NCBI RefSeq assembly: GCF_020099395.1
Contig: NZ_CP083590.1
Location: 5,456,001 to 5,520,000, forward strand
Reading direction: 5' to 3'
Length of the DNA stretch: 64,000 nucleotides
Origin: Streptomyces mobaraensis
Lineage (GTDB): Bacteria; Actinomycetota; Actinomycetes; Streptomycetales; Streptomycetaceae
Shown here: positions 38,847 to 64,000 of the stretch, piece after piece
Numbering within the stretch: the first letter of the stretch is position 1
How the letters are laid out: the number at the start of each line of letters is the position of its first letter
Notes under the pieces: model-generated
What the model was told of the DNA's origin: nothing
The model's database searches: none
Seen by the model: the letters and a program-made list of their open reading frames with translations, nothing else
Made by a program: the position numbers and the translations under genes

Positions 38847-39143
38847 CGTGGGCTGTGCGACGCCCTGGAGGCGAGTGCGGAGGGGCGTTTCACCCCGTCG
38901 CCGGGTGTCGGACGGGAGTTCCGCGAGGCCCTGGGCGTCCTGCTGGAACGGGCCCCACAGGCGGGCGCCGTACGGCGGGACGTGGTGCTGGACGGCGTCC
39001 TCGCCCTGCTCCTCGGATGTTCGATGGAGCGGCGGCGCGGCCCCGGCATGCCGCCCGACAGGATGGCGGCGCTGGCCTGCGACAGCCTCCGTCCGGGGCG
39101 GGGTGTGACGAAACCGCCCCCGAGGCCCCGGGGGCCGGCGTGA
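38847..39143 (+). pseudogene. Remnant of a TetR-family regulator, C-terminal part only
   Basis: An open frame without a start codon runs from just after a TGA (38844-38846) to TGA 39141-39143. It reads GLCDALEASAEGRFTPS..., then FREALGVLLERAPQAGAVRR, DVVLDGVLALLLGCSME and DRMAALACDSLRPG, matching the ligand-binding half of TetR proteins (the LLxRAxxAGxVRxD segment). The N-terminal helix-turn-helix is absent; upstream is repeat R6. It therefore looks like a deletion remnant at the boundary of the metabolite cluster. From 39144 to 39320 nothing further is seen. Confidence 0.65.
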
Positions 39144-39320
39144 CGAAACCTGGTGTGTGGTCTGTGGCGGTTCGCTGTCCGCCGCCCGTACGGGGGCCGC
39201 CCCGGTTCCGCCGCCTGTCGGCAGAAGGCGCATCGCGAGCGGCGGCTGGGCGTGCTCCGGGGGCCGTCCGCGCAGCCGTAGTGGTCCCGCCGTCCAAGGC
39301 CGTTCCCCTCACGTGATTTG

Positions 39321-39337
39321 TGGTGCAAGCTGTTCCA
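39321..39337. promoter_or_regulatory. Operator site 1, upstream of the TetR gene
   Basis: TGGTGCAAGCTGTTCCA, 32 bases before the TetR start. With flanks it extends to an 11-bp half-site pair with 8 matches (TTTGTGGTGCA against TTTATGGAACA). One of four copies in the cluster. Confidence 0.72.
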
Positions 39338-39368
39338 TAAATCGGTCGGTGAACGGAGGCGTCGAGCC

Positions 39369-40001
39369 ATGGCGAGAAGTACCACCAAGGCAACTACCAA
39401 GGAGACCGTCAAGGGGAACGGCCGCGCGGGGCGTGGTCCCGATCCACGGGCGGAGCGCAGCAGGGCCGCGGCGCTGGCGGCCGCAGGTGATCTGCTGATC
39501 GAGGGCGGGTGGGCCGAGGTGACGCACGTGGCCGTGGCGGCGCGCAGCGGCGTAGGGCGGACCACGCTGTACCGGCACTGGCCGGAGGCGGCGATGCTCA
39601 TCCAGGAGCTGCTCGCCGATATTTTCTCGGTGGATCACAGCGAACGCACGGGTGATCTGCGCAGCGACCTCCGCAGCGAAGTGGGGGTAATCGCCGCGAT
39701 GTTGTGCAACCCGAAGCAGGAGCGGGCGCTACGGGTCATCATCGATCAGGCGCCCCTCGATCCCCGGTATGCGGCGGTTCTGGAGTCCTGCACCCGCAAG
39801 GGAATGTCGGCGCTCCGCGAGATTCTGGCGGAGGGCAGCGCACGGGGCGAGCTTCCCGGGTCGCTCGATATCGACGTGGCCGTGGACCGGCTCATCGGTC
39901 CGCTTGTCTTCCGGCGGCTGGCGGAGGGGGGTGACTTCGCCGGAGGCTATGTCGCCGAGCTGGTCGACGACTTCCTGAGGGCGCAGGCGGCCAAGAAGTG
40001 A
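39369..40001 (+). CDS. TetR/AcrR family transcriptional regulator
   Basis: 210 residues. A Lys/Thr/Ala-rich start is followed by the TetR helix-turn-helix (RSRAAALAAAGDLLIEGGWAEVTHVAVAARSGVGRTTLYRHWP, about residues 30-75) and a TetR_C-type ligand domain (LRVIIDQAPLDPRYAAVLESCTRKG; DVAVDRLIGPLVFRRLAEGG). ATG 39369 has GGAGG nine bases upstream. A palindromic site sits directly before it, so autoregulation is likely, and further copies precede the LuxR activator and the MMPL exporter. The inducer may be the pathway product or an intermediate. Confidence 0.93.
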   Translation: MARSTTKATTKETVKGNGRAGRGPDPRAERSRAAALAAAGDLLIEGGWAEVTHVAVAARSGVGRTTLYRHWPEAAMLIQELLADIFSVDHSERTGDLRSDLRSEVGVIAAMLCNPKQERALRVIIDQAPLDPRYAAVLESCTRKGMSALREILAEGSARGELPGSLDIDVAVDRLIGPLVFRRLAEGGDFAGGYVAELVDDFLRAQAAKK

Positions 40002-40110
40002 CGGGGTTGGCCGAACTTCCCATTCCGCGATCTTGATTGGCTCTCCAGCGGGACACCTGTGGCGCACCTGCGGGGCACCAATGGCCCGGCGGAACCTCAG
40101 GCATCATCTG

Positions 40111-40262: not shown

Positions 40263-42617
40263 GTGAGCCAGCTGATGGATTGCGGTGTCCGCGAAGAAGT
40301 GCGCGTGTGCCACGTTCCGCGGCCCTGCCGGGAGGCAGGGTCGTTCCGCGCACCGCGGCTGTACGGAAGGGAGAGGGACATCGCCGAGGTATCCCGGCTG
40401 CTGCGGCAGCCGGGAGTGCGGCTGCTCACCGTCACCGGCCCGGCCGGGGTGGGCAAGAGCGTCCTGGCGGCGGCGGTGGTCGCGGACGCCGTCCCGCAGG
40501 TCGCCGACGAGGTCGTCCGGGCCGACCTGGCCGCCGCCGGCAGCCTCACCGATGTATGGCGCGAGATCGCAGCCGCGCTGGGCCTGCCCGGCGCCGAAGG
40601 GGACGCGGCGCACGCGGCGGTCCCGGACACCGTCGTGGAGTGCATCGGCAACCGCCGGGTGCTGCTCGTCCTGGACAACTGCGACACGGTGGCGAGCCTG
40701 CTGACCGCCGATCCTCCCTGCCTGCTGGCCCGTTGCCTGCGGCTGCGGCTGCTGCTCACCAGCCGGTCCGCGCTCAACGTCTACGCGGAACACCTCCATC
40801 CGCTGGCCCCGTTGCTCGTCCGGACCCGCGACCGGGGCGACGGGAGCTCCGTGGCGGCGCAGCTCTTCCTCGACCGGGTAGGGGCGCACTACCGCGGCGA
40901 CGTCCTCCAAGGCGCGGACCTGCGGAACATCGACGAGATCTGCGAGGTCCTCGACGGGCTGCCGCTCGCCATCGAGGTGACGGCGCGGTCCGTAGGCGCG
41001 ATGAGCACGGGGGAGCTGCTGCAGGCGCTGCGCAGGGGCGAATACCCGTACCACAGCCACTTCCTGGACGTGCCGACCAGACATCACTCACTGTCGAGTG
41101 CACTGTCCTGGGGGGACGCGACGCTCACCGCCGACGAGCGGCTGCTGATGCGGCGGCTCGCCGTCTGCGAGTCCACGATCGACCTGCTCACGGTGCAGCG
41201 GCTGGGCCGCCTCAGCCGCATGCGGGCGGCCCGCCGACTGGACTCGCTGGTCCACAAGAGCCTGCTGGTGAGCGCCAAACGGCGGGACGGCGACCCGGAG
41301 TTCCGGATGCTCACCGTGGTGCGCGACCACTACCGGCGCCAACTCGCCGCCGATACCGTGGCGTTCGCCGAGGCCCGGGAGCTTCACATCGACCACTGCA
41401 TCCGGTTCGCCGCCGCGGCGCGGACCGGCCTGCGCACCGCTGAGGGCCGCTCCCGCTGGCTGGCCCTGGTGCTCACCCGCATGCCGGACCTCCGTACGGC
41501 CGTGCGCGGGCTGCAAGCCCGCAGCCGCCACGCCGACGCGGTACGGATGCTGCTGAACCTGGACGACGCCCTGGCCGTGCACGACCTGCTGCCCGAGGCG
41601 GCCGCGCTGCTGCACGGCTCCCTCGACGCGCTCGCGGCCGGACCGGACGAGGGCCCCGACGGGGGCCCGAACTCCCTATTCGCCGACGCGCTGGCCACGG
41701 CGGGCCGTTGGACGCTGGCTGGCGACGACATGGAACGGGCGAGCGGACTGCTCGACCGGGCGGCCGCACTCCATGAGGCCGCCGGGGACGCCGTCGGAGG
41801 CGCGGGCGTCGCGGTCCACCGCGCGGAGGCACGGCGGCGGGCCGGGGACCTGCTGGGCGCGGTGGCCCTCGCCCAGCAGGCCGTGGCGGTGCTCGATGCC
41901 CGGCGCGAGGTCGGGGGCGCCGCCGCCGCGCGGCGGCAGCTCGGCCTGGCCCTCGCCGGCCAGGGCGCCGCGGAGGCGGAGGCACCCCTGCTCAGAGCGG
42001 TCGACGACCTGCGGTCGCTGGACGATCCGCACGCCCTGGCGCTGGCATTGATCGACCTGGCCCGGGTCAGGGTCGCCCTGGGCCGGTGTGCGGCCGCGCA
42101 CGCCGCCGTACGGGAGGGCATGGACCTGCTCCTGCTGCACTCCGGCAGCCCGGCGGAGGTGGCGCTGGCGCTGGAGACCACGGGACGCGCGGTGGCCGGC
42201 CGGGGCGAGGCCGACCAGCGGGTGGTCCGCCAGGTGCTGGCCGCGGCCGCGGCGCTGCGCGGGCGGTGCGGGGCGGGGGCGGAGCAGGCCCGAACCGTCC
42301 CGCCGGAGGAGTGCCCCTCGCCGGGGTCGGCGCTCACCCTCGCCCTCTCCCTGCCGGTGGCCGCCCTGGAGGCGGAGCACCGGGCGGCGGCTGCGGGCGG
42401 GCCGGACGCCGAGCCGCCCGCAGGGCTCACCCCGCGCCAGTACCAGATCGCCGAGCTGGTGGCCGAGGGCATGACCAACCGGCAGATCGCCCGGACCCTG
42501 GAACTGTCGGAGTGGACGGTGGTCAACCATCTCCGTCAGGTGATGAACAAGCTGAAGTGCCCGTCACGGGTGCACGTGGCCCGGGTGATGCAGCAGCGGG
42601 CCGGCGCGGCGGGGTGA
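40263..42617 (+). CDS. Large ATP-binding LuxR-family pathway regulator
   Basis: 784 residues. An AfsR/NB-ARC-like ATPase comes first: Walker A GPAGVGKS (59-66), Walker B-like RVLLVLDNCD and GLPLAIEVTA. Next is a winged-helix-like segment, then a TPR-like region of alpha-helical repeats (about 400-690). The C-terminus is a LuxR helix-turn-helix (LTPRQYQIAELVAEGMTNRQ...ELSEWTVVNHLRQVMNKL). Such proteins usually activate specialised-metabolite clusters. GTG 40263 has GGGAG seven bases upstream, favoured over GTG 40233. The operator in its leader suggests control by the TetR protein. Confidence 0.9.
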   Translation: MSQLMDCGVREEVRVCHVPRPCREAGSFRAPRLYGRERDIAEVSRLLRQPGVRLLTVTGPAGVGKSVLAAAVVADAVPQVADEVVRADLAAAGSLTDVWREIAAALGLPGAEGDAAHAAVPDTVVECIGNRRVLLVLDNCDTVASLLTADPPCLLARCLRLRLLLTSRSALNVYAEHLHPLAPLLVRTRDRGDGSSVAAQLFLDRVGAHYRGDVLQGADLRNIDEICEVLDGLPLAIEVTARSVGAMSTGELLQALRRGEYPYHSHFLDVPTRHHSLSSALSWGDATLTADERLLMRRLAVCESTIDLLTVQRLGRLSRMRAARRLDSLVHKSLLVSAKRRDGDPEFRMLTVVRDHYRRQLAADTVAFAEARELHIDHCIRFAAAARTGLRTAEGRSRWLALVLTRMPDLRTAVRGLQARSRHADAVRMLLNLDDALAVHDLLPEAAALLHGSLDALAAGPDEGPDGGPNSLFADALATAGRWTLAGDDMERASGLLDRAAALHEAAGDAVGGAGVAVHRAEARRRAGDLLGAVALAQQAVAVLDARREVGGAAAARRQLGLALAGQGAAEAEAPLLRAVDDLRSLDDPHALALALIDLARVRVALGRCAAAHAAVREGMDLLLLHSGSPAEVALALETTGRAVAGRGEADQRVVRQVLAAAAALRGRCGAGAEQARTVPPEECPSPGSALTLALSLPVAALEAEHRAAAAGGPDAEPPAGLTPRQYQIAELVAEGMTNRQIARTLELSEWTVVNHLRQVMNKLKCPSRVHVARVMQQRAGAAG

Positions 42618-42706: not shown

Positions 42707-43720
42707 TCACCGGGGACCGCCAAGGCTGCCCGGCATGGCGAAGACCACGTCCTCCTCCACCGTGGTCAGGGTGTCCACCTGGTCGTAGCCCAGTTCGCCG
42801 AGCCGGTCGACGAGTTGCTCCACCAGGATCTCCGGGGCACTGGCGCCGGCCGTGACGCCCACCGAGTCGACGCCGCGGAGCCAGCTCTCGTCGAGCCGGG
42901 AGACGTTGTCGACCAAGTGGGCGCGGACACCGTGCCGTTGGGCGACCTCGACCATGCGGATCGAGTTGCTGGAGTTGTCGGAACCGACGACCAGGACCAA
43001 CTGTGCCTTCGAGGCCAGCTCCTTGACCGCGTTCTGCCGGTTCTGGCTCGCGTAGCAGATGTCGTCGGAGCCCGGCCCCTTGATGTCGGGGAAGCGGCGG
43101 ACGAGCTCCTCGGTGATGTCGCGCGTCTCGTCGAGCGAGAGTGTGGTCTGCGTCAGATAGCTCACCGAAGTGCCCTCGGGGATCCGCACGGTGCGGGCGT
43201 CCTCGACGGTCTCGATCACGATGGTGTGCTCGGGGGCCTCGCCGACCGTGCCCACCACCTCCTCATGGCGGGCGTGGCCGATGAGCAGGATGGTGTGGCC
43301 GGTGGTGGCGAACCTTCTGGCCTCCTGGTGCACCTTCGACACCAGGGGGCAGGTCGCGTCGATGACGTCGAGCCGGCGGGCCGCCGAGTTGTCCCGCACG
43401 CGGGGCGAGACCCCGTGCGCGGAGAAGACGCACACCGCGCCCTCGGGGACCTCCTCCTCCGATTCCACGAAGACGGCGCCCTTCTTCTCCAGGGACCTGA
43501 CCACGTACTTGTTGTGGACGATCTCGTGGCGGACGTAGACGGGCGCGCCATGGATCTCCAGGGCGCGTTCGACCATGCCGATGGCGCGGCGCACCCCCGC
43601 GCAGAAGCCGCGTGGTTCGGCCAGGATGATGCGCTTGCGGGCGGGGGCCGGAATACTCACGGCACTCACGACGCTCACGGCACTCACCTCATTCACGGCG
43701 TTCAGGTCTCCCTTCACCAT
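42707..43720 (-). CDS. ispH: 4-hydroxy-3-methylbut-2-enyl diphosphate reductase, cluster copy
   Basis: 337 residues. Last MEP-pathway enzyme, releasing IPP and DMAPP. The three 4Fe-4S cysteines are in PRGFCAGVRRA (C40), DATCPLVSKVH and DDICYASQNRQ. The substrate motifs VYVRHEIVHNKYVV and FSAHGVSP are intact, so it should be active. The start is uncertain: ATG 43720 is given, but the N-terminus is made of repeated GTG-containing units and GTG 43702 with AAGGGAG 11 bases upstream is equally likely. Streptomyces normally has another ispH elsewhere; this copy beside pathway genes suggests dedicated isoprenoid supply. Confidence 0.92.
   Translation of the reverse strand: MVKGDLNAVNEVSAVSVVSAVSIPAPARKRIILAEPRGFCAGVRRAIGMVERALEIHGAPVYVRHEIVHNKYVVRSLEKKGAVFVESEEEVPEGAVCVFSAHGVSPRVRDNSAARRLDVIDATCPLVSKVHQEARRFATTGHTILLIGHARHEEVVGTVGEAPEHTIVIETVEDARTVRIPEGTSVSYLTQTTLSLDETRDITEELVRRFPDIKGPGSDDICYASQNRQNAVKELASKAQLVLVVGSDNSSNSIRMVEVAQRHGVRAHLVDNVSRLDESWLRGVDSVGVTAGASAPEILVEQLVDRLGELGYDQVDTLTTVEEDVVFAMPGSLGGPR
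43655..43708 (-). repeat. Degenerate 9-base tandem repeat in the ispH start region
   Basis: Units on the plus strand read actcacggc, actcacgac, gctcacggc, actcacctc, attcacggc and gttcaggtc. They encode VSAVSVVSAVNEV-like residues on the minus strand, an N-terminal extension before the enzyme proper (ARKRIILAEPRGFC). Confidence 0.7.
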
Positions 43721-43903: not shown

Positions 43904-45538
43904 ATGGGAAGGGCTGGAATACCGTTCCGTAAACATCCGACAAGTCTGGGAATGCTGTTCGACTGGCATGCGGAGGCGGACCGCCAGACCGTTGCCTGCC
44001 TCGACCGGCCCTTCGACATCGCCCCCGACCGGGGAACGCTCTATACCGGCAGCCAACTGGCCGAGCTGGTGCAGCAGTTCTCGGCGCAGTTGTATGCGGC
44101 GGGGGCGCGCCGCGGCGACCGGGTGGCGATCCTCAAGGACAACCACCTCGACATGGCCCTCGCCGCTGCGGCCGCCGCGCGGTTCGGTGCCTTGCCGGCG
44201 ACGATCTCGGCCGTGAACTCGCCCGAAGTGCACCGGGCGTTGCTGGCCCGGCTCGACCCTGCCGTGCTCGTGATCTCGCCCGGGCCGCTCGCCCGCGCCG
44301 TAGAGGCCGGGGTGGAGCTGGCGGGGCCGCGCACCCGGGTGGTGTTGCTGGGCGAGCGCGACGAGGGGACGCCCGAGTCCGTGCTGACCCGGGCCGATCT
44401 GGCGGGCGGCCCGGTGCCGCCGGCCGCTCCCGCCGGGCGGGACGAGCCGATGCTCGTCATGCACAGCTCCGGGACGACCGGGGTGCCCAAGCTTGTCGTC
44501 CACTCCGCCGCCACGATGCTCGGCGGCATCGCACGGATGGAGCGCATCAAGTTCCCGGTGCTGGCGAGCAAGCACCGCGATGTCGCGGCGACGTCGGTGT
44601 CGTTCGCGCACGGCCGGATCGTGTCATGGCTGATGGGCCAGTTCGTGCTGGCCCCCCGGAAGATCGTGATCATCTCGAGGCATGAGCCGGAGGTCGCCGA
44701 GCGGATGCTGGCCGAGCACCGGCCGACGACGCTTGAGGCGTGCCCCAACATCTTCCAGCGGTGGGAGGGACTCGCGGTCCGGCGCCCGGAGTTGTTCCGC
44801 CGGGTGCGGCTGTACGTGGGGACGTTCGACGCGGTGCATCCGCGCACGGTACGGACGTTCCTGACCGCCAGCAGGCGGCCGTTCCCGGTCTGGCTCCAGG
44901 GGTGGGGCCAGAGTGAGGTGGGGCCGGTGTGCTTCACCTTGTTCACCCGGGGGCAGATGCGGGGTGCGGCCGACGGGTCGTCCGTGACCAGCGACATCGG
45001 CTGGCCCTCGCCGGGGTTCAACCGGGTCCGGGTCGTCGATGCGGAGACCGGCCGCCGGGTGGGCCGGGGCCGCCCTGGGATCATGATGGTCGCCACCAAG
45101 GCCCGCTGCCTCGACTACCTCGGGGAGAGCGACCGCTGGCGGGAAAAGGTCCGGGGAGCGTGGTGGAACACCGGCGACATCGGTGAGCTAGGCCGCTTCG
45201 GCCGGCTGCGGCTGGTCGACCGCGAGGTGGACATCATTCCGGGCACGAGCGGGATCGAGCTGGAGTCGGTGCTGCTGGACCGGCTCCCCCTGGTCTCCGA
45301 TGTGACGGTCCTCGGGGTGCCCGGGCAACTGCCGGTGCCGGTGCTGTCGACGGAGGACGGCCGGCTCGACCCCGAGGAGTGGCGGCAGGCCGTCCGCGGC
45401 CTGCCGGAGCTGGCGGAGCCGCGACTGATCCCCTTCGAGGAGGTGCCGCGCACGGCGACGTGGAAGGTGCGGCGCCTGGAGCTGCGCGAAAAAGTGCTCG
45501 GCGACAAGTCGCACATCGGCACGGGCCGTTGGACGTGA
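43904..45538 (+). CDS. ANL-superfamily acyl-adenylating enzyme
   Basis: 544 residues. It activates a carboxylic acid as acyl-AMP, probably for transfer to CoA or an amine. Motifs: A3 MHSSGTTGVPKLVVHS (about 187), A5 GWGQSEVGPV, A7 WWNTGDIGELG, A8 RLRLVDREVDIIPG, and a C-terminal lysine region RTATWKVRRLEL. The substrate pocket cannot be read reliably. ATG 43904 has GGAAGGGG six bases upstream; the earlier in-frame region gives no better start. Divergent from ispH, with the FAD enzyme next in the same direction after a repeat copy. No carrier-protein domain is fused. Confidence 0.87.
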   Translation: MGRAGIPFRKHPTSLGMLFDWHAEADRQTVACLDRPFDIAPDRGTLYTGSQLAELVQQFSAQLYAAGARRGDRVAILKDNHLDMALAAAAAARFGALPATISAVNSPEVHRALLARLDPAVLVISPGPLARAVEAGVELAGPRTRVVLLGERDEGTPESVLTRADLAGGPVPPAAPAGRDEPMLVMHSSGTTGVPKLVVHSAATMLGGIARMERIKFPVLASKHRDVAATSVSFAHGRIVSWLMGQFVLAPRKIVIISRHEPEVAERMLAEHRPTTLEACPNIFQRWEGLAVRRPELFRRVRLYVGTFDAVHPRTVRTFLTASRRPFPVWLQGWGQSEVGPVCFTLFTRGQMRGAADGSSVTSDIGWPSPGFNRVRVVDAETGRRVGRGRPGIMMVATKARCLDYLGESDRWREKVRGAWWNTGDIGELGRFGRLRLVDREVDIIPGTSGIELESVLLDRLPLVSDVTVLGVPGQLPVPVLSTEDGRLDPEEWRQAVRGLPELAEPRLIPFEEVPRTATWKVRRLELREKVLGDKSHIGTGRWT

Positions 45539-45787: not shown

Positions 45788-47122
45788 GTGACCGATATCG
45801 ACGTCGCCGTCGTCGGCGGCGGCATTGCCGGGCTGACCACGGCGTACCGGCTGAGCCGCCGCGGCCACCGCGTCGAGGTGTTCGAGGCCGCGGACGAGCC
45901 GGGCGGCCGGATGCGGTCCAGCCGGGTCGACGGCTGGACCATGGACACCGGAGCCGAGACGATCTCGCCCTACGGCTACCCGGCCACCTGGGAGTTGATC
46001 AAGGAGCTCGGCCTGGAGCAGGCCGGAGCGCTGCACCGGATCCGGCATCCGGTGGGCCTGTGGCGGGGTGGCCGTACCCACCCCTGGGTGGGCCACCCCC
46101 GCTCGTTGCTGGCCGGCGCCGGGATGACCGCCCGCGGCCGCGTGCAGTTGTTGCGGATGATGCTGGCGAGCGCGACCCGCTCGGGCCGGGTCGATCCGGA
46201 CCGGCCGGAGGACTCGGGGTTCGGTACCCGCACTCTCGCCCAGTACGGTGCGGCGCACGGCCGTGAGCTGGTCGACAACCTGCTCGCGCCCGTCTCGTCC
46301 GCCGCCTTCGGCTGGCTTCCCGAACGCAGTTCCGCCGCACCGATGTTGGCGATCATGCAGGGCACGCATGGCATCTACCGGTGGCAGACCTACCGCGACG
46401 GGCAGGACACCATGGCGCGGATCCTCGCGCAGCATGTCAAGGTGCATCTGTCCCGCACGGTGACCGCGGTGGAGCGGGACGGCCGGGGGGCGCGGCTGGC
46501 CTTCGCGGACGGCACCGGGCTCACCGCGCGGGCGGCCGTCGTCACGCTTCCCTCGCCGGAGATCCCGGCGCTCCGGCCTGATCTGGAGGACGGGGAGCGG
46601 GAGTTCCTCGAGGCGTCGACGTTCACGACCATGATCCGGGTCTGTGTCCGGCTCAACCGGCCGCTGGAGCCGCGGCGGACCGCTGGGCAGCCGCGGCTGT
46701 ACGCCTTCGTCATGGGCCCCGGTGAGGACTCCCTGCTCTCGGGTGGCACGGTGGAGCACAACAAGTGCCCGGCCCGCGTCCCGTACGGCAAGGGGCTGGT
46801 GACGCTGCTGATCTCGCCCCGCCGGGCCGCCGAGGTGTACGACCTCCCCGACGGCCAGGTACTCGACCGTGTCCTCGACGAGGGGGAGCGGTTCATCGAC
46901 GGGCTGCGTGCGGCGTATGCGGGCCATGAGGTGGTGCGGTGGCGCAATGGCCTGCCGGAGGCGCCGCCGGCCGCGCTGGCGCTGCGGAAGGCGTTCGTCA
47001 GTCGTGCGCCGGGGCCCGTGGAGTACGCGGGCGACTGGATCTATCTGCGGCCGAGCAGCGAGGCCGCGATCGCGTCCTCCCGCCGGGCGGCCTCCCGGGT
47101 CGCCGCCTGGCTCGCCCGCTGA
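45788..47122 (+). CDS. FAD-dependent amine-oxidase/protoporphyrinogen-oxidase-like enzyme
   Basis: 444 residues. Dinucleotide-binding VVGGGIAGLTTAYRLSRRGH followed by the acidic strand end EVFEAADEPGGRMRS. The C-terminal FAD motif YAGDWIYLRPSSEAAIASS is present. The overall plan matches the phytoene desaturase, amine oxidase and HemY group, so it may desaturate or oxidise a terpenoid or amine. GTG 45788 is chosen because AAGGAGG lies about ten bases upstream; ATG 45779 is only one base from it. Confidence 0.87.
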   Translation: MTDIDVAVVGGGIAGLTTAYRLSRRGHRVEVFEAADEPGGRMRSSRVDGWTMDTGAETISPYGYPATWELIKELGLEQAGALHRIRHPVGLWRGGRTHPWVGHPRSLLAGAGMTARGRVQLLRMMLASATRSGRVDPDRPEDSGFGTRTLAQYGAAHGRELVDNLLAPVSSAAFGWLPERSSAAPMLAIMQGTHGIYRWQTYRDGQDTMARILAQHVKVHLSRTVTAVERDGRGARLAFADGTGLTARAAVVTLPSPEIPALRPDLEDGEREFLEASTFTTMIRVCVRLNRPLEPRRTAGQPRLYAFVMGPGEDSLLSGGTVEHNKCPARVPYGKGLVTLLISPRRAAEVYDLPDGQVLDRVLDEGERFIDGLRAAYAGHEVVRWRNGLPEAPPAALALRKAFVSRAPGPVEYAGDWIYLRPSSEAAIASSRRAASRVAAWLAR

Positions 47123-52576: not shown

Positions 52577-53441
52577 CAACGCATGGGCCGACGGCAGCGG
52601 CATCACCCTGTGCGGCATCGGCGACGAGGCAGGTGCCGCGCTCGCCGACCAGACCACCGCCCTCACCATCCTCGGCTGGTCCGCCATCGAGCTGCGCAGC
52701 GTCGACGGCACCGCCCTCGCCGACCTCGACGACGCCGCCTTCGACCGCCTCACCGACCACCTCGCCGACGCGGGCCTGCGCGTCGCCTGCGTCGACTCCC
52801 GCATCGCCAACTGGGCCCGCCCCGTCACCGCCGACCTCAAGGACGACCTGCGCGAGCTGGAGATCCTCGCCGGGCGCTGCGCCCGGCTCGGCACCCGGAT
52901 GATCCGCGTCATGTCGTACCCCAACGACGGCCTGGCCGAGACGGCCTGGCGGGCCGAGGTGTTCCGGCGGCTGGCGGAGCTCACCGCGCGTGCCGAGGAT
53001 GCCGGAGTGGTGCTGGTGCACGAGAATTGCGCGGGCTGGGCAGCCACCAGGGCCGACCGCATGCTGGAGCTGCTCGACCACCTCGACAGCCCCGCGTTCC
53101 GGCTCCTCTTCGACATCGGCAACGGCGTGGCGTACGGGTACGAGGCGTACGACCTGCTGCCCGACATCGCACCCTTCGTCGCCCATGTGCATATCAAGGA
53201 CGCGCTCGGCACCTCCGAGGAGACCCGCTACACGCTGCCCGGACGAGGCCGCTGCCGCGTCGTGGACGCCGTGCGGCTGCTGCAGGACCAGGGGTATGCG
53301 GGGTTCCTCTCCATCGAGCCGCACCTCTCCGTCCGCCCCCACGAGAGCGGCACCGCCCCGGACGGCGGCCTTGTGGCCGAGTTCGTCGCGTACGGGCGCG
53401 AGCTGGAACGGCTCCTCGCGGGCCATGGGACGGGCGCATGA
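52560..53441 (+). CDS. Xylose-isomerase-like TIM-barrel sugar isomerase/epimerase
   Basis: 293 residues. The AP-endonuclease-2 fold is indicated by the metal ligands in VLVHENCAGW, LLFDIGNGVAYG, AHVHIKDA and FLSIEPHLS. Relatives isomerise or epimerise keto sugars, or dehydrate inositols (IolE type). ATG 52560 has AAGGAG upstream and lies inside the end of the preceding gene. The ATGA overlap with the next gene implies a coupled set. Confidence 0.87.
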   Translation: MSWADSNAWADGSGITLCGIGDEAGAALADQTTALTILGWSAIELRSVDGTALADLDDAAFDRLTDHLADAGLRVACVDSRIANWARPVTADLKDDLRELEILAGRCARLGTRMIRVMSYPNDGLAETAWRAEVFRRLAELTARAEDAGVVLVHENCAGWAATRADRMLELLDHLDSPAFRLLFDIGNGVAYGYEAYDLLPDIAPFVAHVHIKDALGTSEETRYTLPGRGRCRVVDAVRLLQDQGYAGFLSIEPHLSVRPHESGTAPDGGLVAEFVAYGRELERLLAGHGTGA

Positions 53442-54739: not shown

Positions 54740-54748
54740 GGAATCGTC

Positions 54749-55888: not shown

Positions 55889-56790
55889 CTGCGCTGCGCA
55901 TCGGGATCGTCGGCCTCGGCGTCATCTCACGCTTCTATGTGGCCGCCTTCGATGAACTCCCCGGCCTCGAACTCGCGGCCGTCTGCGACCTGCGGCCCGA
56001 GGCGCTGCGCCCCTTCGAGGGGCGCGCCGCCTGCTTCACGGACCACCGCACCATGATCGCCGAGGCTGAGCCGGACGCCGTCGTCGTCAACGTGCCCAAC
56101 GACGCCCACGCCGCCGTCTGCACCGACCTCCTCGCCGCCGGCATCGCCGTCTGCGTGGAGAAGCCGCTGGCCACCACCGTCGAGGACGGCCGGGCCCTGG
56201 TGCGGCTGGCCCGGGAGCGGGGGACGGTGCTGTTCACCTCGTTCCACCGCCGCTACAACGACAACGCCCTCGCCCTGCTCGACAAGATCAGCGGCACCCC
56301 CGTGTCCTCGCTCACCGTCCGCTACCTGGAGACGATCGAGGAGCACGCCGGGACCGACCGCTGGTACCTGGACCCGGCCCGCTGCGGCGGCGGCTGCGTC
56401 GCCGACAACGGCCCCAACGCCTTCGACACCGTGCGGCAGTTCCTCGGCCCCGTCGAGGTCACCGATGCCACCGTCGTCCGTGACGGCGACGGCATCGACC
56501 GGCAGGCCACCGTCCTGCTCCGCGCGGCGGACGGTGCCACCGCCCGGGTCGAACTGGACTGGTCCCACCCCGGGGAGACCAAGGACATCGAGGTCCGCCT
56601 CACCGACGGCACCGTGCACAGCGCCGACATGCTCGCCGGGCACCCTGCCTTCAAGCAGTCGCTGTGGCACGAATACGCCGGCGTGCTGCGCGACTTCGCC
56701 ACCGCCGTGCGGGCCGGCGAGGACCGCTCCGAGGGCGGCCTCGCCGCCCTCGAACTCGTTGCCGAGAGCTATCGGAGGGAACGGCAGTGA
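55885..56790 (+). CDS. Gfo/Idh/MocA family oxidoreductase, second copy
   Basis: 301 residues. IGIVGLGVISRFYVAAF binds the nucleotide and CVEKPLATT is the EKP motif; TSFHRRYNDNALALLD and GGGCVADNGPNAFDTVRQFLG match the catalytic His/Asp region of the family. It is more canonical than the first copy and different in sequence, so the two probably act on different intermediates. GTG 55885 and its stop overlap both neighbours by four bases. Confidence 0.9.
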   Translation: MTALRIGIVGLGVISRFYVAAFDELPGLELAAVCDLRPEALRPFEGRAACFTDHRTMIAEAEPDAVVVNVPNDAHAAVCTDLLAAGIAVCVEKPLATTVEDGRALVRLARERGTVLFTSFHRRYNDNALALLDKISGTPVSSLTVRYLETIEEHAGTDRWYLDPARCGGGCVADNGPNAFDTVRQFLGPVEVTDATVVRDGDGIDRQATVLLRAADGATARVELDWSHPGETKDIEVRLTDGTVHSADMLAGHPAFKQSLWHEYAGVLRDFATAVRAGEDRSEGGLAALELVAESYRRERQ

Positions 56791-57194
56791 ACCCTGCCGA
56801 GGACGGCGCCAAACGACCGGTCACCGGCGCCCTTGTCAAGGTCCTCACCCACCGTCGCGACGACCGGGGCATGCGCCTTGAGGAGTTCGCGAGCCGCTGC
56901 ATCCGGCGCGGCGAGATCCACGAACTGGTCACCACCGACCAGCACGACACCACACCCGGCGCGGTCGTGGACCGGGTCGGCTTCCTCGGCTTCGTCGAGA
57001 TCGCCGCGGGCGGCGTCATCGACCGGGGCGACGAGGTACGGGCCGAAGGCCGCCTCATCGGCACCGTCCTCGGCTTCGACGCCTGCCACTTCCCCAACCA
57101 CTACAACGTGCTGATCGCCGTCGACGCAACGGTCACCGGCCCGGAGCTCGGGCTCGGCCCCGAAACGGAGGTGCGCTTTGACCCCCCGAACTGA
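56787..57194 (+). CDS. Unrecognised 135-residue protein in the biosynthetic operon
   Basis: 135 residues, soluble, no signal. Segments: [60 protein letters not shown] and [21 protein letters not shown], with clustered histidines, aspartates and cysteines that could form a binding site. I do not recognise the family. GTG 56787 overlaps the preceding stop and its own end overlaps dxs by 17 bases, so it is translated with the pathway enzymes and likely has a dedicated role. Confidence 0.85.
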
Positions 57195-59070
57195 GACCCC
57201 ACTGCTCCGTTCCGTGCGCGGCCCGGCCGACCTCCGTGGGCTCGCCCCCCAAGAGCTGCCGCGACTGGGCGCCGAGATCCGGGAATTCCTCGTCGACGCA
57301 GTCTCCCGCACCGGCGGCCACCTCGGCCCCAACCTGGGCGTGGTCGAGCTGACGATCGCGCTGCACCGCGTCTTTGAATCCCCCCGCGACCGGCTGCTGT
57401 GGGACACCGGGCACCAGGCGTACGTCCATAAACTCCTCACCGGACGCCAGGACTTCTCCGCGCTGCGCAGCCGCGGTGGGCTCTCCGGCTACCCCTCCCG
57501 CGCCGAGTCCGACCACGACGTGATCGAGAACTCCCATGCCTCCACGGCCCTCTCCTACGCGGACGGCCTGGCCCGCGCCCACCGGCTGCGCGGCCGCACC
57601 GACTGCCATGCCGTCGCGATCATCGGCGACGGCGCCCTCACCGGCGGCATGGCCTGGGAGGCGCTCAACAACATCGCGGTCGCCGACGACCTGCCGCTCG
57701 TCATCGTCGTCAACGACAACGGCCGCTCCTACGCCCCCACCCGGGGCGGCCTCGCCGAGCACCTCACCGCCCTGCGCACCAACCCCGGCTACGAGCGGAT
57801 CCTCGCCCGCGGCAAGGACCTGCTCGAACGCACCCCGGTCGTGGGCAAGCCGCTCTACGAGAGCCTGCACGGTGCGAAGAAGGGGCTGAAGGACTTCGTC
57901 GCCCCCCAGGGGCTCTTCGAGGACCTCGGCCTGAAGTATGTCGGGCCGGTCGACGGGCACGACATCGCGGCGCTGGAGACGGCGCTGCGCCGGGCCCGCG
58001 GGTTCGGCGGTCCGGTCGTGGTGCACTGCATCACCAGCAAGGGCAAGGGCCATGCCCCGGCCGAGCAGCACGAGGGCGACCGGTTCCACGCCATCGGCGC
58101 GACGCCCGTCGCCAAGAGCGCCCGGTCCCGGCCGTCGTGGACGTCCGTCTTCGCCGACGAGATCGTCAAGGTGGGCGGAGAGCGGGAGGACGTCGTGGCC
58201 CTCACCGCCGCGATGCGCGAACCGGTCGGGCTCGAGCCCTTCGCCGCCGCCTACCCGGAGCGGGTGTTGGACACCGGCATCGCCGAGCAGCACACCGTGA
58301 CCTCCGCCGCCGGGCTCGCCCTGGGCGGCCTCCACCCGGTCGTCGCCCTCTACGCCACCTTCCTCAACCGGGCCTTCGACCAGGTGCTCATGGACGTGGC
58401 CCTGCACGAGTGCGGCGTCACCTTCGTCCTCGACCGGGCGGGCGTCACCGGCGACGACGGCCCCAGCCACAACGGGATGTGGGACCTGGGGCTGCTCCAG
58501 CTCGTCCCCGGCCTGCGCATCGCCGCCCCCAGGGACGGCGCCCGGCTCCGCAGGCAGCTGCGGGAGGCGCTGGACGTCGACTCCGCGCCTACCGTGGTCC
58601 GTTACCCGAAGGGTCAGGTCGCCCCCGATGTGGAACCCGTCACCACGGTGGCCGGGATGGAGGTGCTGGGCCGCCCCGAGGGCCGCAGCGAGGTGCTGCT
58701 GGTCTCGGTGGGGGCGATGGCGCAGCCCTGCCTCGCCGCCGCCGAGGCGCTGCGCGGGCAGGTCGGGGTGACCGTGGTCGACCCCTGCTGGGTCAAGCCC
58801 GTCAACCCCGCTCTGGTCGAACTGGCGGCGGAGCACCGGCTGGTGGTCACCGTCGAGGACGGCGGCCGCACCGGCGGCGTCGGCTCGGCCGTCGCCCAGG
58901 CGCTCCGCGACGCCGGGGTGCCGGTCCCCGTCCGGGTGCTCGGCCTCGACCAGCGGTTCTACGCGCACGGCAGCCGGGGCGAGGTCCTGGCCGAGGCGGG
59001 CCTCACCGCCGACGACATCGCGGCGACGATTGCCGCCGCACGCCCCGACCGCCTCCAGGAGGTCTCGTGA
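57178..59070 (+). CDS. dxs: 1-deoxy-D-xylulose-5-phosphate synthase, cluster copy
   Basis: 630 residues. First MEP-pathway enzyme, joining pyruvate and glyceraldehyde 3-phosphate with thiamine diphosphate. Signatures are [16 protein letters not shown], the ThDP motif [16 protein letters not shown], catalytic Glu in [39 protein letters not shown] and the C-terminal [21 protein letters not shown] start at 57178 is used since GGAGG lies six bases before it, within the end of the previous gene. The stop overlaps ispG. Complete, so probably a functional second copy. Confidence 0.93.
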
Positions 59071-60221
59071 CCGCGCTCGCCCTCGGCATGCCCACGGTGC
59101 CGCCCCGGCTCGCCCCGCGCCGGAAGAGCCGGCAGATCCAGGTCGGTTCGGTGGCCGTCGGGGGTGACGCACCCGTGTCCGTGCAGTCGATGACGACCAC
59201 GGTCACGGCGGACGTCGGCGCCACCCTCCAGCAGATCGCCCAACTCACCGCCTCCGGCTGCCAGATCGTGCGGGTCGCCTGCCCCTCGCAGGACGATGCG
59301 GATGCGCTGAAGGTGATTGCGGCGAAGTCGCAGATCCCGGTGATCGCGGATATTCACTTCCAGCCGAAGTATGTCTTCGCCGCGATCGATGCCGGGTGTG
59401 CGGCGGTGCGCGTCAACCCCGGTAACATCAAGCGCTTCGACGACAAGGTCGGGGAGATCGCCGCGGCCGCCTCTGCTGCCGGGACGCCGATCCGGATCGG
59501 GGTCAATGCGGGGTCGCTGGACCGGCGGCTGCTGGCGAAGTACGGCAAGGCCACGCCCGAGGCGCTGGTGGAGTCGGCTTTGTGGGAGGCGTCCCTCTTC
59601 GAGGAGCACGGCTTCAGGGACATCAAGATCTCGGTCAAGCACAACGACCCGGTGGTGATGGTCAACGCCTACCGGCAGCTGGCCGCCGCCTGTGACTACC
59701 CCCTCCACCTCGGTGTCACCGAGGCGGGGCCGGCCTTCCAGGGGACCGTCAAGTCCGCCGTCGCCTTCGGCGCGCTGCTCTCGGAGGGCATCGGCGACAC
59801 CATCCGTGTCTCCCTGTCCGCGCCCCCGGCCGAGGAGGTCAAGGTCGGCATCCAGATCCTGGAATCGCTGGGCCTGCGGCAGCGGCGGCTGGAGATCGTC
59901 TCCTGCCCGTCCTGCGGCCGCGCCCAGGTGGATGTCTACAAGCTGGCCGATGAGGTCACGGCGGGTCTTGAGGGTATGGAGGTGCCGTTGCGGGTGGCGG
60001 TGATGGGGTGTGTGGTCAACGGTCCGGGTGAGGCGCGTGAGGCGGATCTCGGGGTGGCCTCGGGCAATGGCAAGGGGCAGATCTTCGTCAGGGGCGAGGT
60101 CATCAAGACCGTGCCCGAGTCGAAGATCGTCGAGACCCTCATCGAGGAGGCGATGAAACTCGCCGAGCAGCTGGAGAAGGAGGGTGTCCTCACGGGCTCG
60201 CCCGAGGTCACCGTGGCCTGA
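59067..60221 (+). CDS. ispG: 4-hydroxy-3-methylbut-2-en-1-yl diphosphate synthase, cluster copy
   Basis: 384 residues. MEP-pathway Fe-S enzyme forming [40 protein letters not shown], and the cluster cysteines in VSCPSCGR and [11 protein letters not shown] are intact. GTG 59067 overlaps the dxs stop with CAGGAGG upstream. Codon use changes along the gene: stretches near 59285-59560 and 59940-60080 use many codons ending G or T (gat gcg, gtg ttg), unlike the rest of the operon. A terminator follows. Confidence 0.94.
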
Positions 60222-60242
60222 CCATTACTCGGAAGAACACGG

Positions 60243-60444: not shown

Positions 60445-61632
60445 TTGACAAGCACGGCACTGGAAAACTCGGCGGAGCCGATCCCCTTTTTCGACCAGGC
60501 GGAATCCTTCGCCTCACTCTGGCCCCTCATCGCCCGCCACACCGACGACGTCTTCGACCGGGGGAAGTTCTCGCACGGCCGCAAAGTGGCCGAGCTGGAG
60601 CGGGCCATCGCCGAATACACCGGCGCCGCCCATGCCGTGGCGGTCAACAGCGGAACGGACGCCCTGGTGATCCTTTTGCGCGCCGCCGGGATCGGGCCGG
60701 GCGACGAGGTCATCGTGCCCGCCTTCTCCTTCTTCGCCACGGCCTCCTCCGTGAACATGGCGGGCGCCACCCCGGTCTTCGCGGACATCACCGCCGACGG
60801 GGACTATGGGCTTGACGCCGCCTCCGTCGAAGCGGCGATCACCGAGCGCACCCGGGCCGTGATGCCGGTCCACCTCTTCAGTCAACTCGCGGACCTGGGC
60901 GCCCTGTCGGAGCTGAGCGCCCGCCATGACCTGCTGCTGCTCGAGGACAGCGCGGAGGCCATCGGGATGCGGTGGGACGGCACCCACGCAGGGCTGATCG
61001 GGGCGGGCGGCGTCCTGTCCTTCTTCCCCACCAAGACCCTCGGGGCGCTGGGCGATGCCGGCATGGTGCTCACCCAGGACGACGCCATCGCCGAGCAGGC
61101 CGCGGTACTGCGGCACCACGGCCGCATGGGCAAGACCATCGACCACATCGCCGGTATCTCCAACCTCTCCGGGGTCTCCGGCACCAATAGCAAGATGGAC
61201 GACGTCCAGGCGGCCGTGCTGCTCGCCAAGCTCTCCCGGCTCGACGCGGACATCGCCCGACGGCGCGTCCTGGCCGAGGCGTACACGGAGCGGCTGCGCG
61301 GCGCCGACGGTGTGCTGGCCGTGCCCCGGATCGTGGAGCGCGCGGTCCCCACGGATCCGGTCTGCTACGTCTACCTGGTGGAGGTCGAGCGCCGCGACGA
61401 GCTGGTGGCGTACCTGGCCGCGCGCGGCATCGGCACCGAGACGTACTACCCGCGCACCCTGCACCTCCAGCCCTGCTATGCGGACCACCCGCAGCACCGC
61501 CCCGGACTCTTCCCCCACGCCGAGGCCGCCTGCGAGCGGACCCTGGCGCTCCCCCTCTATCCGGACCTCACCGAGGAACGGCTGGAGACGGTGTGTTCCG
61601 CGATCTTCGACTTCTACGCCGGGAGGCGGTGA
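60445..61632 (+). CDS. DegT/DnrJ/EryC1/StrS-type sugar aminotransferase, first copy
   Basis: 395 residues. PLP lysine K197 in LSFFPTKTLGALGDAG, with EDSAEAIG and NSGTDALVILLRAAGIGPGDEVIVPAFSFFATASS. The SFFPTKxLGALGDAG form is common in WbpE/DegT enzymes acting on keto sugars or keto-cyclitols. No ATG or GTG fits; a TTG at 60445 (MTSTALENSAEPIPFFDQ) is proposed with GAGG upstream, uncertain. First gene after the ispG terminator; the second aminotransferase starts two bases after its stop. Confidence 0.88.
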   Translation: MTSTALENSAEPIPFFDQAESFASLWPLIARHTDDVFDRGKFSHGRKVAELERAIAEYTGAAHAVAVNSGTDALVILLRAAGIGPGDEVIVPAFSFFATASSVNMAGATPVFADITADGDYGLDAASVEAAITERTRAVMPVHLFSQLADLGALSELSARHDLLLLEDSAEAIGMRWDGTHAGLIGAGGVLSFFPTKTLGALGDAGMVLTQDDAIAEQAAVLRHHGRMGKTIDHIAGISNLSGVSGTNSKMDDVQAAVLLAKLSRLDADIARRRVLAEAYTERLRGADGVLAVPRIVERAVPTDPVCYVYLVEVERRDELVAYLAARGIGTETYYPRTLHLQPCYADHPQHRPGLFPHAEAACERTLALPLYPDLTEERLETVCSAIFDFYAGRR

Positions 61633-61633
61633 C

Positions 61634-62752
61634 ATGGCCACCATCCCCTTCTTCCCGCCCGACCTCTTCGAATCGGACCGGCAGGCGTTCAAGGACCTGC
61701 TGTACGAGGTGGGGACCGACCCCGAGCAGCGCTTCATCCTCGGCAGGCGCACCGCCGAGCTCGAGGAGGAGCTGCGCCGCAGCACGGGCGCGGAGCATGT
61801 CGTCGCCTGCTCCAGCGGGACGGGCGGACTCAACCTCGCCGTGCAGGCCCTGGGAGTCGGCCCGGGCGACGAGGTGATCGTGCCGGCGTTCTGCTGCCAG
61901 CCGGTGGCCAGTTCGGTGGCGAACCTCGGGGCGACCCCGGTCTTCGCCGACGTCGATCCGCACACCATGGTCATCGACCCGGACGACGTGGCCCGGCTGA
62001 TCGGGGAGCACACCAAGGCGATCATGCCCGCCCATGTCTTCTCGATCATGGCGGACATGCCCCGCATCAACGAGATCGCGAAGGAGCACGGGATTCCGGT
62101 CGTCGAGGACGCGGCGGTGGCCGAGGGCGCGGTGCTCGCCGGAGTGCCGTCCGGGCGCTGGGGAGACCTCGGGGTCTTCTCGTTCTTCCAGGTCAAGGCG
62201 TTCGGCACGGCCGGGGAGGGCGGCGTCGTCCTCACCGACGACGCGGAACTGGCCGACCGCGTACGGCGGTTGCGCAACCATGGCCAGGACGGCGTGCACC
62301 GCTTCCTCCACCACGAGATCGGGCAGAACAGCCGCTTCGACGAGATCGTTGCCGCGTTCCAGCTCCACCGCCACGCCGGTTTCGAGGAGCGCCTGGAGCG
62401 CCGGGCCAGGATCGCCGACTACTACACCGAGCGGTTCGCGCCGCTGGCCGACCGGGGGCTGCTCGCCCCGCCCGCGGGGCGCGACGGCCGCTGCTACTAC
62501 GTGTATTCCCTGCTCGTCCGGCGCCGTGGCGACCTGCGGGCGTGGCTCACGGAACAGGGGATCGGCAGCCATGTCTACTACCCGGTCCCGCTGCCCGGGC
62601 AGCCCGCATTCGCGGCGTACGCCCCGGAGGGCGCCGAGTGGCCGGGTGCGCAGTACTCCAGTGACCACAACCTGGCCATCCCGATCTGGCCCCATCTCAC
62701 CGATGCCCAGGTCGAGTACATCGCCGACGCCGTCTGTGACTTCTTCAACTGA
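61634..62752 (+). CDS. DegT/DnrJ/EryC1/StrS-type sugar aminotransferase, second copy
   Basis: 372 residues. PLP lysine K188 in FSFFQVKAFGTAGEGGVV, with VEDAAVAEGAVL and CSSGTGGLNLAVQALGVGPGDEVIVPAFCCQPVAS. It differs strongly from the first copy: FQVKAFGTAGEGG resembles the secondary or StrS-like group. ATG 61634 has GGGAGG nine bases upstream. Two aminotransferases side by side suggest two amino groups, or one amination plus an atypical PLP reaction. Confidence 0.9.
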   Translation: MATIPFFPPDLFESDRQAFKDLLYEVGTDPEQRFILGRRTAELEEELRRSTGAEHVVACSSGTGGLNLAVQALGVGPGDEVIVPAFCCQPVASSVANLGATPVFADVDPHTMVIDPDDVARLIGEHTKAIMPAHVFSIMADMPRINEIAKEHGIPVVEDAAVAEGAVLAGVPSGRWGDLGVFSFFQVKAFGTAGEGGVVLTDDAELADRVRRLRNHGQDGVHRFLHHEIGQNSRFDEIVAAFQLHRHAGFEERLERRARIADYYTERFAPLADRGLLAPPAGRDGRCYYVYSLLVRRRGDLRAWLTEQGIGSHVYYPVPLPGQPAFAAYAPEGAEWPGAQYSSDHNLAIPIWPHLTDAQVEYIADAVCDFFN

Positions 62753-62782
62753 CCATGGTTCAACTGACGAGGGAGAGAGCCA

Positions 62783-64000
62783 GTGACCACCAAGCTGGTT
62801 GTCATGGGCCAGGGGTACGTCGGTCTGCCGCTGGCCGTCGCGGCGGCCGAGCACGGCTACCACGTCGTCGGGTACGACACCGACGCGTCACGGGTGACCC
62901 GGCTCGCCGCGGGTGAGTCGTTCGTGGGGGACATCCCCGCCGAGCGGCTGCGCGCCGTGCTCGACGGGGGCGCGTACCAGCCGAGCATCGACCCCGACGA
63001 CCTGGACGGGTTCGACATCGCGGTCATCACCGTGCCCACCCCGCTGCACGAGGGGGTGCCGGACCTCTCCTACATCGAGCAGGCGGGCGAGGAGCTGGCC
63101 TCCCGGCTGACGCCCGGGGCCACGGTGGTGCTGGAGTCCACCAGCTACCCCGGCACCACCGAGGAGGTTCTCGCCCCGATCCTGCAGAAGGGCTCCGGGC
63201 TCGGCCCCGGCCTCGACTTCCACCTCGGCTACAGCCCCGAGCGCATCGACCCCGGCAACGCCGAGTGGACCTTCGAGACCACCCCCAAGGTGGTCTCCGG
63301 AGTGGACGAGGAGTCGCTGCGGACCCTGGAGGCCTTCTACGGCTCCATCGTCCGGCAGACCGTGCCCGCGCCGTCCACACGCGTCGCGGAGCTCGCCAAG
63401 GTCCTGGAGAACACTTTCCGGCACGTCAACATCGCCCTGGTCAACGAGCTCGCCACGCACGCCGCCGGCATCGGGGTCAACGTCTGGGACGCGCTGGAGA
63501 TCGCCTCGACCAAGCCGTTCGGCTTTATGCGGTTCACCCCGGGCCCGGGCGTGGGCGGCCACTGCCTCCCCGTCGACCCGCTCTATCTCTCCTGGCGGGT
63601 GGAGCGGACCCTCAGCAAGCGGTTCCGGCTGGTGGAGCTGGCGGACGAACTCAACAGCCAAATGCCGGAGTACGTGGTGCAGCGGCTCACCCGCGGCCTC
63701 GACCGGCGGCGGCAGACCGTCACCGGCTCCCGCATCCTCATGCTCGGCCTGGCCTACAAGGCGAACACCGGTGACGTCCGCGAGTCCCCGGCCCTGCCCA
63801 TCGCCCGGATGCTGATCGAGGCGGGCGCCTCGGTCCGGGTGGCCGACCCGTACGTCACCGAGAGCGTCGGCATACCGGGCATCACGCGGGTTGACCTGAC
63901 CGAGGAGGAACTGACGGAGGCCCACGCCGTCCTGCTCACCACCGACCATGACGCCTTCGACTACGCCGCGATCGCCTCCTCGGCCCGCTACGTCTTCGAC
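62783..64000 (+). CDS. UDP-sugar 6-dehydrogenase (WecC/WbpA type), 3' end outside window
   Basis: 406 codons are visible, without a stop. LVVMGQGYVGLPLAVAAAEHG binds NAD, the catalytic cysteine is in PGVGGHCLPVDPLYL (about residue 259), and SPERIDPGN and LAYKANTGDVRESP are typical of UDP-N-acetylmannosamine/UDP-N-acetylglucosamine dehydrogenases, which oxidise C6 to a uronate. GTG 62783 has GGGAGAG upstream. Only a few C-terminal residues should be missing, as family members are about 420-440 residues. Same direction as both aminotransferases, so it belongs to a sugar-modifying operon that runs off the window. Confidence 0.9.
   Translation, partial: MTTKLVVMGQGYVGLPLAVAAAEHGYHVVGYDTDASRVTRLAAGESFVGDIPAERLRAVLDGGAYQPSIDPDDLDGFDIAVITVPTPLHEGVPDLSYIEQAGEELASRLTPGATVVLESTSYPGTTEEVLAPILQKGSGLGPGLDFHLGYSPERIDPGNAEWTFETTPKVVSGVDEESLRTLEAFYGSIVRQTVPAPSTRVAELAKVLENTFRHVNIALVNELATHAAGIGVNVWDALEIASTKPFGFMRFTPGPGVGGHCLPVDPLYLSWRVERTLSKRFRLVELADELNSQMPEYVVQRLTRGLDRRRQTVTGSRILMLGLAYKANTGDVRESPALPIARMLIEAGASVRVADPYVTESVGIPGITRVDLTEEELTEAHAVLLTTDHDAFDYAAIASSARYVFD

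Follow-up and report, generated by a model that had tools for sequence, protein, structure and literature searches.

A two-part isoprenoid and sugar gene cluster of Streptomyces mobaraensis, with a Trp-type variant in Kitasatospora

Towards its right end, a 64,000-nucleotide stretch of the Streptomyces mobaraensis genome (the window; bases 5456001-5520000 of the main contig, genome size 7.67 Mb) carries isoprenoid, prenylation and acid-activating genes together with a set of sugar-modifying enzymes, which raises the question of what these sugar enzymes make and what becomes of their product. Genes were called with a home-made caller, whose start positions may be off, and the called genes were assigned to families by Pfam and NCBIfam profile scans. 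Gene calling gave a candidate cluster of 19 genes at 39369-64054 with a two-part modular make-up. Part A, a conserved sugar pathway (51533-57194, 60445-62752 and 62783-64054), comprises a nucleoside diphosphate (NDP)-sugar dehydrogenase, two DegT aminotransferases, two Gfo/Idh enzymes, a TIM-barrel protein, an M20 hydrolase, an Ldh_2 dehydrogenase and the DUF6917 protein. Part B, the prenyl part, comprises a UbiA-family enzyme, a methyltransferase, an adenylating enzyme and a flavin adenine dinucleotide (FAD) oxidase. The genes for DXS, IspG and IspH of the methylerythritol phosphate (MEP) pathway and for an MMPL transporter are optional additions to the cluster family. We propose, with a probability of roughly 0.45, that this is a modular specialised-metabolite cluster in which part A turns a uridine diphosphate (UDP)-hexose or hexuronate into an anthranilate-like amino acid that is prenylated by UbiA. 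Gene content, borders, conservation, co-occurrence, the Trp-type variant and the alteration of its TrpD are established by the sequence data, and all of the chemistry is inferred from them. The initial annotation of the locus, a hybrid of isoprenoid and amino- or uronic-sugar-type genes with local MEP supply and an acid-activating enzyme, is supported. Its view of the prenyl acceptor as a sugar or cyclitol is not settled, as the Trp-type variant described below points to an anthranilate-like acid and the Pfam matches of the cluster include no sugar phosphate cyclase that would form a cyclitol. In line with its remark that no characterised cluster with exactly this content is known, no description of the gene set was found in the openly licensed literature, among the matches listed, and the cluster family is real, widespread and apparently undescribed.

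Linkage of the sugar pathway to the prenyl part

A scan of GTDB species genomes for the UbiA family yielded 204 stretches encoding a relative. The best 80 loci were kept and 78 of these (at least 5 kb long) were analysed, with gene matches counted at 40% or more of gene length; as the flanks extend to at most 10 kb, per-gene counts among the 78 loci are lower bounds. At least three of the six genes at 51533-57194 were present in 64 loci, the DegT pair also in 64, and both in 56. Named genera with UbiA relatives include Streptomyces, Saccharopolyspora, Nocardiopsis, Actinomadura, Saccharothrix, Lentzea, Kibdelosporangium and Actinokineospora. Since these loci were chosen by UbiA, the co-occurrence is conditional. 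In an independent linkage test, DUF6917 and UbiA were each searched in the same 297 family (Streptomycetaceae-level) genomes and were detected in 46 and 45 genomes, respectively, with both in 42. DUF6917 occurred without UbiA in four genomes (G027, G067, G171 and G183) and UbiA without DUF6917 in three (G080, G246 and G285). Where both were present, they shared a contig in 39 of the 42 genomes and lay at most 25 kb apart in 38; in G130, G078 and G008 they were on separate contigs.

These data bear on another reading, in which the sugar genes serve catabolism or housekeeping and the isoprenoid genes next to them are unrelated. Part A enzyme families are indeed also found in sugar catabolism. 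Nevertheless, the patchy distribution (DUF6917 in 46 of the 297 family genomes), the linkage to UbiA, the duplication of the MEP genes and a plasmid-borne copy of nearly the same set make this reading next to negligible. The copy is located on the mobilizable Streptomyces plasmid NBC_00490, in whose set matches to IspG, IspH and the FAD amine oxidase were not found.

A Trp-type variant of the sugar pathway

Two of the genomes with DUF6917 and without UbiA, Kitasatospora sp. MMS16-BH015 (G171) and a second member of the genus (G183), carry part A in one operon interleaved with TrpA, TrpB, TrpC and TrpD. The gene order is B3/4 - Gfo/Idh::DUF6917 - Ldh_2 - M20 - TIM - DegT - DegT - TrpA - TrpB - TrpC - TrpD - NDP-sugar dehydrogenase, which places the Trp genes after the DegT pair and before the NDP-sugar dehydrogenase. 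Of the 11 junctions in G171, 10 are overlaps, seven of them by 4 bases (starts as called). Near the operon of both genomes are genes for TrpF, in place of which Streptomyces normally use PriA, and for an ATP-grasp ligase, a major facilitator superfamily (MFS) protein and an aminotransferase. The free B3/4 domain, which we take to be an editing-type domain otherwise part of phenylalanyl-tRNA synthetase (PheRS), directly adjoins the Gfo/Idh::DUF6917 fusion, and such a gene beside part A fits an amino-acid analogue. A third genome, G067, keeps parts of the variant (B3/4, 73%; TrpF, 60%; DUF6917, 48%). The existence of a Trp-type variant of the same sugar pathway suggests that the sugar becomes an anthranilate-like amino acid.

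Furthermore, TrpD of the variant operon is altered in both Kitasatospora genomes, where it reads KAGN, having lost the histidine of KHGN. KHGN is kept in the housekeeping copies of TrpD in G171 and G183, in the probable housekeeping copy of the window (35606-36673) and in four solved TrpD chains from two different enzymes, presumably those of Thermus and Mycobacterium. One report describes KHGN as a conserved anthranilate-binding motif whose lysine contacts anthranilate, with HGN contacting phosphoribosyl pyrophosphate (PRPP) (PMC5537072). The histidine may therefore be as important for PRPP as for the acceptor. TrpD of the variant nevertheless scores above the TIGR01245 trpD cut-off. Among the best 120 of 3207 relatives compared, the 42 nearest (at least 49% identity, query included) are without the histidine, which is replaced by alanine in 36, valine in three, threonine in two and serine in one; the next 78 have it. 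Named sources of this clade (P0224-P0265) include Streptomyces, Kitasatospora, Micromonospora and Flexivirga. A search of the 297 family genomes at E up to 1e-75 gave the variant type in two, adjoining part A in both. In this set, part A is thus linked to a separate clade of TrpD whose active-site motif is changed.

The same genes can be read in another way, whereby part A makes an amino-sugar acid, an ATP-grasp ligase joins it to extra tryptophan, and the Trp genes are uninformative on part A chemistry. Such a conjugate would suit the G171 locus, which includes an MFS gene and an ATP-grasp ligase of two domains, both with homologues in G183, and it would suit the TrpE- and TrpG-like genes near part A in G183. 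On the other hand, no chorismate-binding enzyme was found within 2 Mb of part A in G171, and the altered KHGN motif is unexpected in an enzyme that merely makes more tryptophan; we therefore regard the conjugate as rather improbable.

In the route to an anthranilate-like acid, the NDP-sugar dehydrogenase would oxidise a UDP-hexose at C6 to the uronate, on which a Gfo/Idh dehydrogenation and a DegT transamination would each take place twice. The TIM-barrel, M20, Ldh_2 and DUF6917 proteins would then release and isomerise the intermediate and oxidise it or close its ring, to give a small amino-carboxylic block, probably an anthranilate analogue (an ortho-amino acid). UbiA would prenylate this acid, and the adenylating enzyme, FAD oxidase and methyltransferase would activate, oxidise and methylate the prenylated product. 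The extra DXS, IspG and IspH would raise isoprenoid supply, the MMPL protein would serve in export, and the TetR and LuxR proteins in regulation. In the Trp-type variant, TrpD to TrpB would instead convert the part A acid to a tryptophan analogue. Known substrates of the Ldh_2 family are 2-hydroxy acids or cyclic imine-2-carboxylates, and the six-carbon uronate has the carbon count of an aminopyridine-carboxylate (five ring carbons and the carboxyl group). Because of this carbon count and of what is known of the Ldh_2 family, a pyridine carboxylate is a plausible part A product. The most far-reaching form of the proposal would be a route that bypasses chorismate and leads from a nucleotide sugar to an aminopyridine-carboxylic acid ("aza-anthranilate"), which in actinobacteria would be used either by UbiA for an aza-meroterpenoid or by a re-tuned TrpD-F-C-A-B series for a tryptophan analogue, with a PheRS-type editing domain for self-protection and an ATP-grasp enzyme forming a dipeptide; in this complete form we hold it to be doubtful.

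The kinship of several part A enzymes points in a different direction, close to the initial annotation, namely to a prenylated amino-uronic sugar. Part A would then end at a UDP-diaminouronate or a free diamino-uronic acid, as in the WbpA/WbpB/WbpE series, and UbiA would join the sugar acid to an isoprenoid, directly or via the adenylating enzyme. The NDP-sugar dehydrogenase is nearest to UDP-ManNAcA dehydrogenase, the nearest solved relative of the second DegT enzyme is WbpE (4.3e-61), and the Gfo/Idh enzyme is weakly like UDP-GlcNAc 3-dehydrogenase (77 bits, cut-off 450). We nonetheless consider this outcome unlikely: no glycosyltransferase or N-acetyltransferase is among the Pfam matches of the cluster, and a prenylated amino-uronic sugar would account neither for the interleaving with TrpABCD nor for the TIM-barrel, M20, Ldh_2 and DUF6917 genes.

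Several observations weigh against a prenylated anthranilate analogue. The solved relatives nearest to both DegT enzymes include what we take to be several sugar 3-aminotransferases and those nearest to the Gfo/Idh enzyme are aldose 1-dehydrogenases, a kinship that by itself gives no ortho-amino acid; the solved relatives of the adenylating enzyme are all remote. The Trp-type variant is rare, with two full and one partial case (G067) among the 46 genomes with DUF6917, and G067 has no match to the variant-type TrpD at E 1e-75. In G183 several genes are broken, and part A is followed at a distance of about 1.5 kb by a TrpE-like and a TrpG-like gene; ordinary anthranilate could therefore feed its Trp enzymes. 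Moreover, 14 of the 78 UbiA loci lack three or more of the six genes at 51533-57194 (several loci end early), and on a Rhizobium plasmid neither Trp genes nor genes for UbiA, NDP-sugar dehydrogenase or DUF6917 lie near part A.

The idea of an anthranilate analogue is not proven; it is testable and would be new. If true, nucleotide sugars would be a newly recognised origin of an aromatic-type amino acid, and the pathway would be a source of prenylated N-heterocycles and of antimetabolites that resemble tryptophan. The substituted TrpD histidine offers a sequence handle in the search for such pathways. DUF6917, the marker of part A, is carried by 46 of the 297 sampled genomes, and UbiA accompanies it in 42. 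Even so, neither a product description nor any paper naming DUF6917 was found in the openly licensed literature, among the matches listed.

Genes, borders and relatives of the cluster

Every enzyme listed in the initial annotation is present at 39.4-64.05 kb. All part A genes lie on the plus strand. Of the two Gfo/Idh enzymes named there, the second is recognised by Pfam (55885-56790; PF01408, 91 bits; 48 of 78 loci), with L-arabinose 1-dehydrogenases as top PDB matches. The first (51533-52576; 66 of 78 loci) has no Pfam match at 0.001 and is assigned as a divergent Gfo/Idh-type dehydrogenase by profile comparison: hhalign relates it to the enzyme at 55885 (97.3%), its EKP motif is invariant, and its Rhizobium homologue matches PF01408 (8.2e-06). 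It is followed by a TIM-barrel isomerase/epimerase of the AP_endonuc_2 family (52560-53441; PF01261, 102 bits; 64 of 78), an M20 amidohydrolase (53438-54739; PF01546, 55.8 bits; 63 of 78) and an Ldh_2-family 2-hydroxyacid/imine dehydrogenase (54791-55888; PF02615, 325 bits; 53 of 78), whose PDB relatives include delta1-piperideine-2-carboxylate reductase. The list had overlooked DUF6917 (56787-57194; PF21891, 193 bits; 45 of 78), a small, mostly-beta protein with a structure model of pLDDT 95. DUF6917 is fused to Gfo/Idh in two genomes (G171 and G183), and on the Streptomyces plasmid NBC_00490 it precedes DXS as an N-terminal fusion (L108 22404-24731). The two DegT aminotransferases (60445-61632, PF01041, 371 bits; 61634-62752, PF01041, 310 bits; each in 64 of 78 loci) have intact pyridoxal phosphate-lysine motifs, SFFPTK and SFFQVK, respectively. 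Neither of them, nor the Gfo/Idh enzyme, reaches a listed NCBIfam cut-off. The NDP-sugar 6-dehydrogenase (62783-64054; 36 of 78) scores 380 bits with the subfamily model TIGR03026 (cut-off 190).

In part B, the AMP-binding acid-adenylating enzyme (43952-45538, plus strand; PF00501, 153 bits; 64 of 78) has an intact core motif, SSGTTGVPK, and the FAD amine oxidase/HpnE-like oxidoreductase (45788-47122, plus strand; PF01593, 164.5 bits) is found in 60 of the 78 loci. The S-adenosylmethionine-dependent methyltransferase (50557-51357, minus strand; PF08241, 59.9 bits) is matched in 72 of 78 loci at a median identity of only 37%. The UbiA-family prenyltransferase (49610-50560, minus strand), 97% identical to a Streptomyces mobaraensis protein, passes the PF01040 cut-off of 34.2 with 50.8 bits. 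This low score would also suit a membrane terpene cyclase, which would supply a cyclised terpene alcohol or acid to be decorated with the part A product; UbiA-type cyclases are known, and one study reportedly concerns intramembrane terpene synthases of a fungus. Both Asp-rich motifs, DDVTGIRDGSD at 73 and NDVAGDR at 214, are present, with D73, D74, D80, D83, D215 and D219 invariant in a 34-row alignment. Such motifs alone do not separate a cyclase from a prenyltransferase; their retention counts against the cyclase, which we consider very unlikely. As separate observations, one UbiA match (G118:C1:4739835-4740755) holds a single in-frame TGA, and a 3 kb contig labelled Candidatus Melainabacteria (L073), perhaps mis-binned, encodes a UbiA relative (44%).

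The optional genes encode an MMPL transporter (47223-49466, minus strand; PF03176, 261 bits; 9 of 78 loci), IspH (LytB; 42707-43720, minus strand; NF002189, 458.6 bits, cut-off 444; 11 of 78), DXS (57214-59070, plus strand; TIGR00204, 577.8 bits, cut-off 466; 9 of 78) and IspG (59067-60221, plus strand; NF001540, 538 bits, cut-off 345; 5 of 78). The three MEP enzymes all exceed NCBIfam equivalog cut-offs and are extra copies, since DXS and IspG are each encoded at three other places in the genome and IspH at one. Because four polyprenyl synthases are encoded elsewhere in the genome, all outside the window, the cluster needs no local one, although a family with a polyprenyl synthase as its scanned member is present in 14 related loci. 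Apart from the cluster, the same genome has two loci in which DXS, IspG and polyprenyl synthase lie together (G000:C1 1187194-1194056 and 6400183-6404486). Streptomyces philanthi (L039) and S. buecherae (L050) have DXS, IspG, UbiA and IspH with no sugar genes in view, L039 additionally with a gene of the polyprenyl synthase family; these are second UbiA loci, the strains also having a sugar-type cluster (L049 and L029, respectively).

With regard to the borders, the NDP-sugar dehydrogenase gene, the last of the cluster, stops at 64054, 54 bases beyond the window edge. The initial annotation expected the cluster to extend further right, which is not borne out up to 78827: 13 genes were called at 64055-78827, and none of the 10 scanned for families (hemerythrin, AsnC, rhomboid, NYN, two NlpC/P60, a methyltransferase, helix-turn-helix/DUF5753 and two family-less) is related in type to the cluster. 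On the left, no gene was called at 38847-39368, and a class V aminotransferase at 37238 has no homologue in the 78 loci. Since the right flank is unrelated and the left genes are rare or absent in the 78 loci, the core spans about 42.7-64.05 kb, and the regulators at the left edge probably belong to the cluster as well. The LuxR-family regulator with an AAA/NB-ARC ATPase (40416-42617, plus strand; PF00196, PF13401 and PF00931) has homologues in five of the 78 loci (at least 40% of its length). Membership of the TetR-family regulator (39369-40001, plus strand; PF16859/PF00440) is uncertain because it has no homologue in those loci; a relative of 30% identity lies within the NBC_00490 plasmid cluster, and the protein reaches only 30 bits with the ScbR-like model NF041196 (cut-off 150). 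No Trp genes were found inside the cluster of the window. The sole TrpD, KHGN motif intact, lies outside it, about 2.7 kb left of the TetR gene, and is probably a housekeeping copy and a chance neighbour.

Further families accompany the cluster elsewhere. In 33-35 of the 78 loci there are additional families with an EF-hand protein, a CoA-transferase III and a second adenylating enzyme as scanned representatives, and 12 loci have a family represented by a BenE benzoate transporter, which speaks for the proposed anthranilate-like acid. The EF-hand gene (L052 802-1335, relatives in 33 loci) is kept inside a distant form of the cluster. A conjugative plasmid of Rhizobium sp. T136 (L109 5347-17588) encodes part A relatives of 31-45% identity, accompanied by a class III aminotransferase, an EgtD-like methyltransferase, an ATP-grasp enzyme and an MFS protein, with transposase genes on either side.

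Comparison with known systems

The cluster resembles the BE-40644 locus of Actinoplanes and the ebo operon in pairing a UbiA enzyme with a sugar-derived ring, a UbiA-family enzyme being proposed to prenylate such a ring in both systems (PMC5133447). A further likeness is a xylose-isomerase-like enzyme in ebo. Both systems rest on a sugar phosphate cyclase (EEVS, EboD) (PMC5133447). Such a cyclase was not among the Pfam matches of the 20 genes at 37238-64054, and in contrast to BE-40644 and ebo the sugar chemistry of the cluster would lie with the NDP-sugar dehydrogenase, Gfo/Idh and DegT enzymes. Membrane-bound prenyltransferases are also involved in meroterpenoid formation by the hybrid-isoprenoid clusters of MAR4 Streptomyces, in a paper whose main text uses neither the word UbiA nor the word aminotransferase (PMC4650096). 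The MAR4 strain CNH099 has a relative of the cluster described here (L032).

WbpA-WbpB-WbpE is a UDP-diamino-uronate pathway, with which the cluster shares an NDP-sugar 6-dehydrogenase, a Gfo/Idh dehydrogenase and a WbpE-like aminotransferase. The cluster differs in having no acetyltransferase or glycosyltransferase among its Pfam matches and in its second DegT and second Gfo/Idh enzymes, together with the TIM-barrel, M20, Ldh_2 and DUF6917 proteins. Unlike the ordinary tryptophan pathway, the variant of G171 and G183 has a TrpD without the KHGN histidine and, in G171, no chorismate-binding enzyme nearby, but the enzyme families of the TrpD-C-B-A series are the same, and in both genomes they are coupled to the part A operon.

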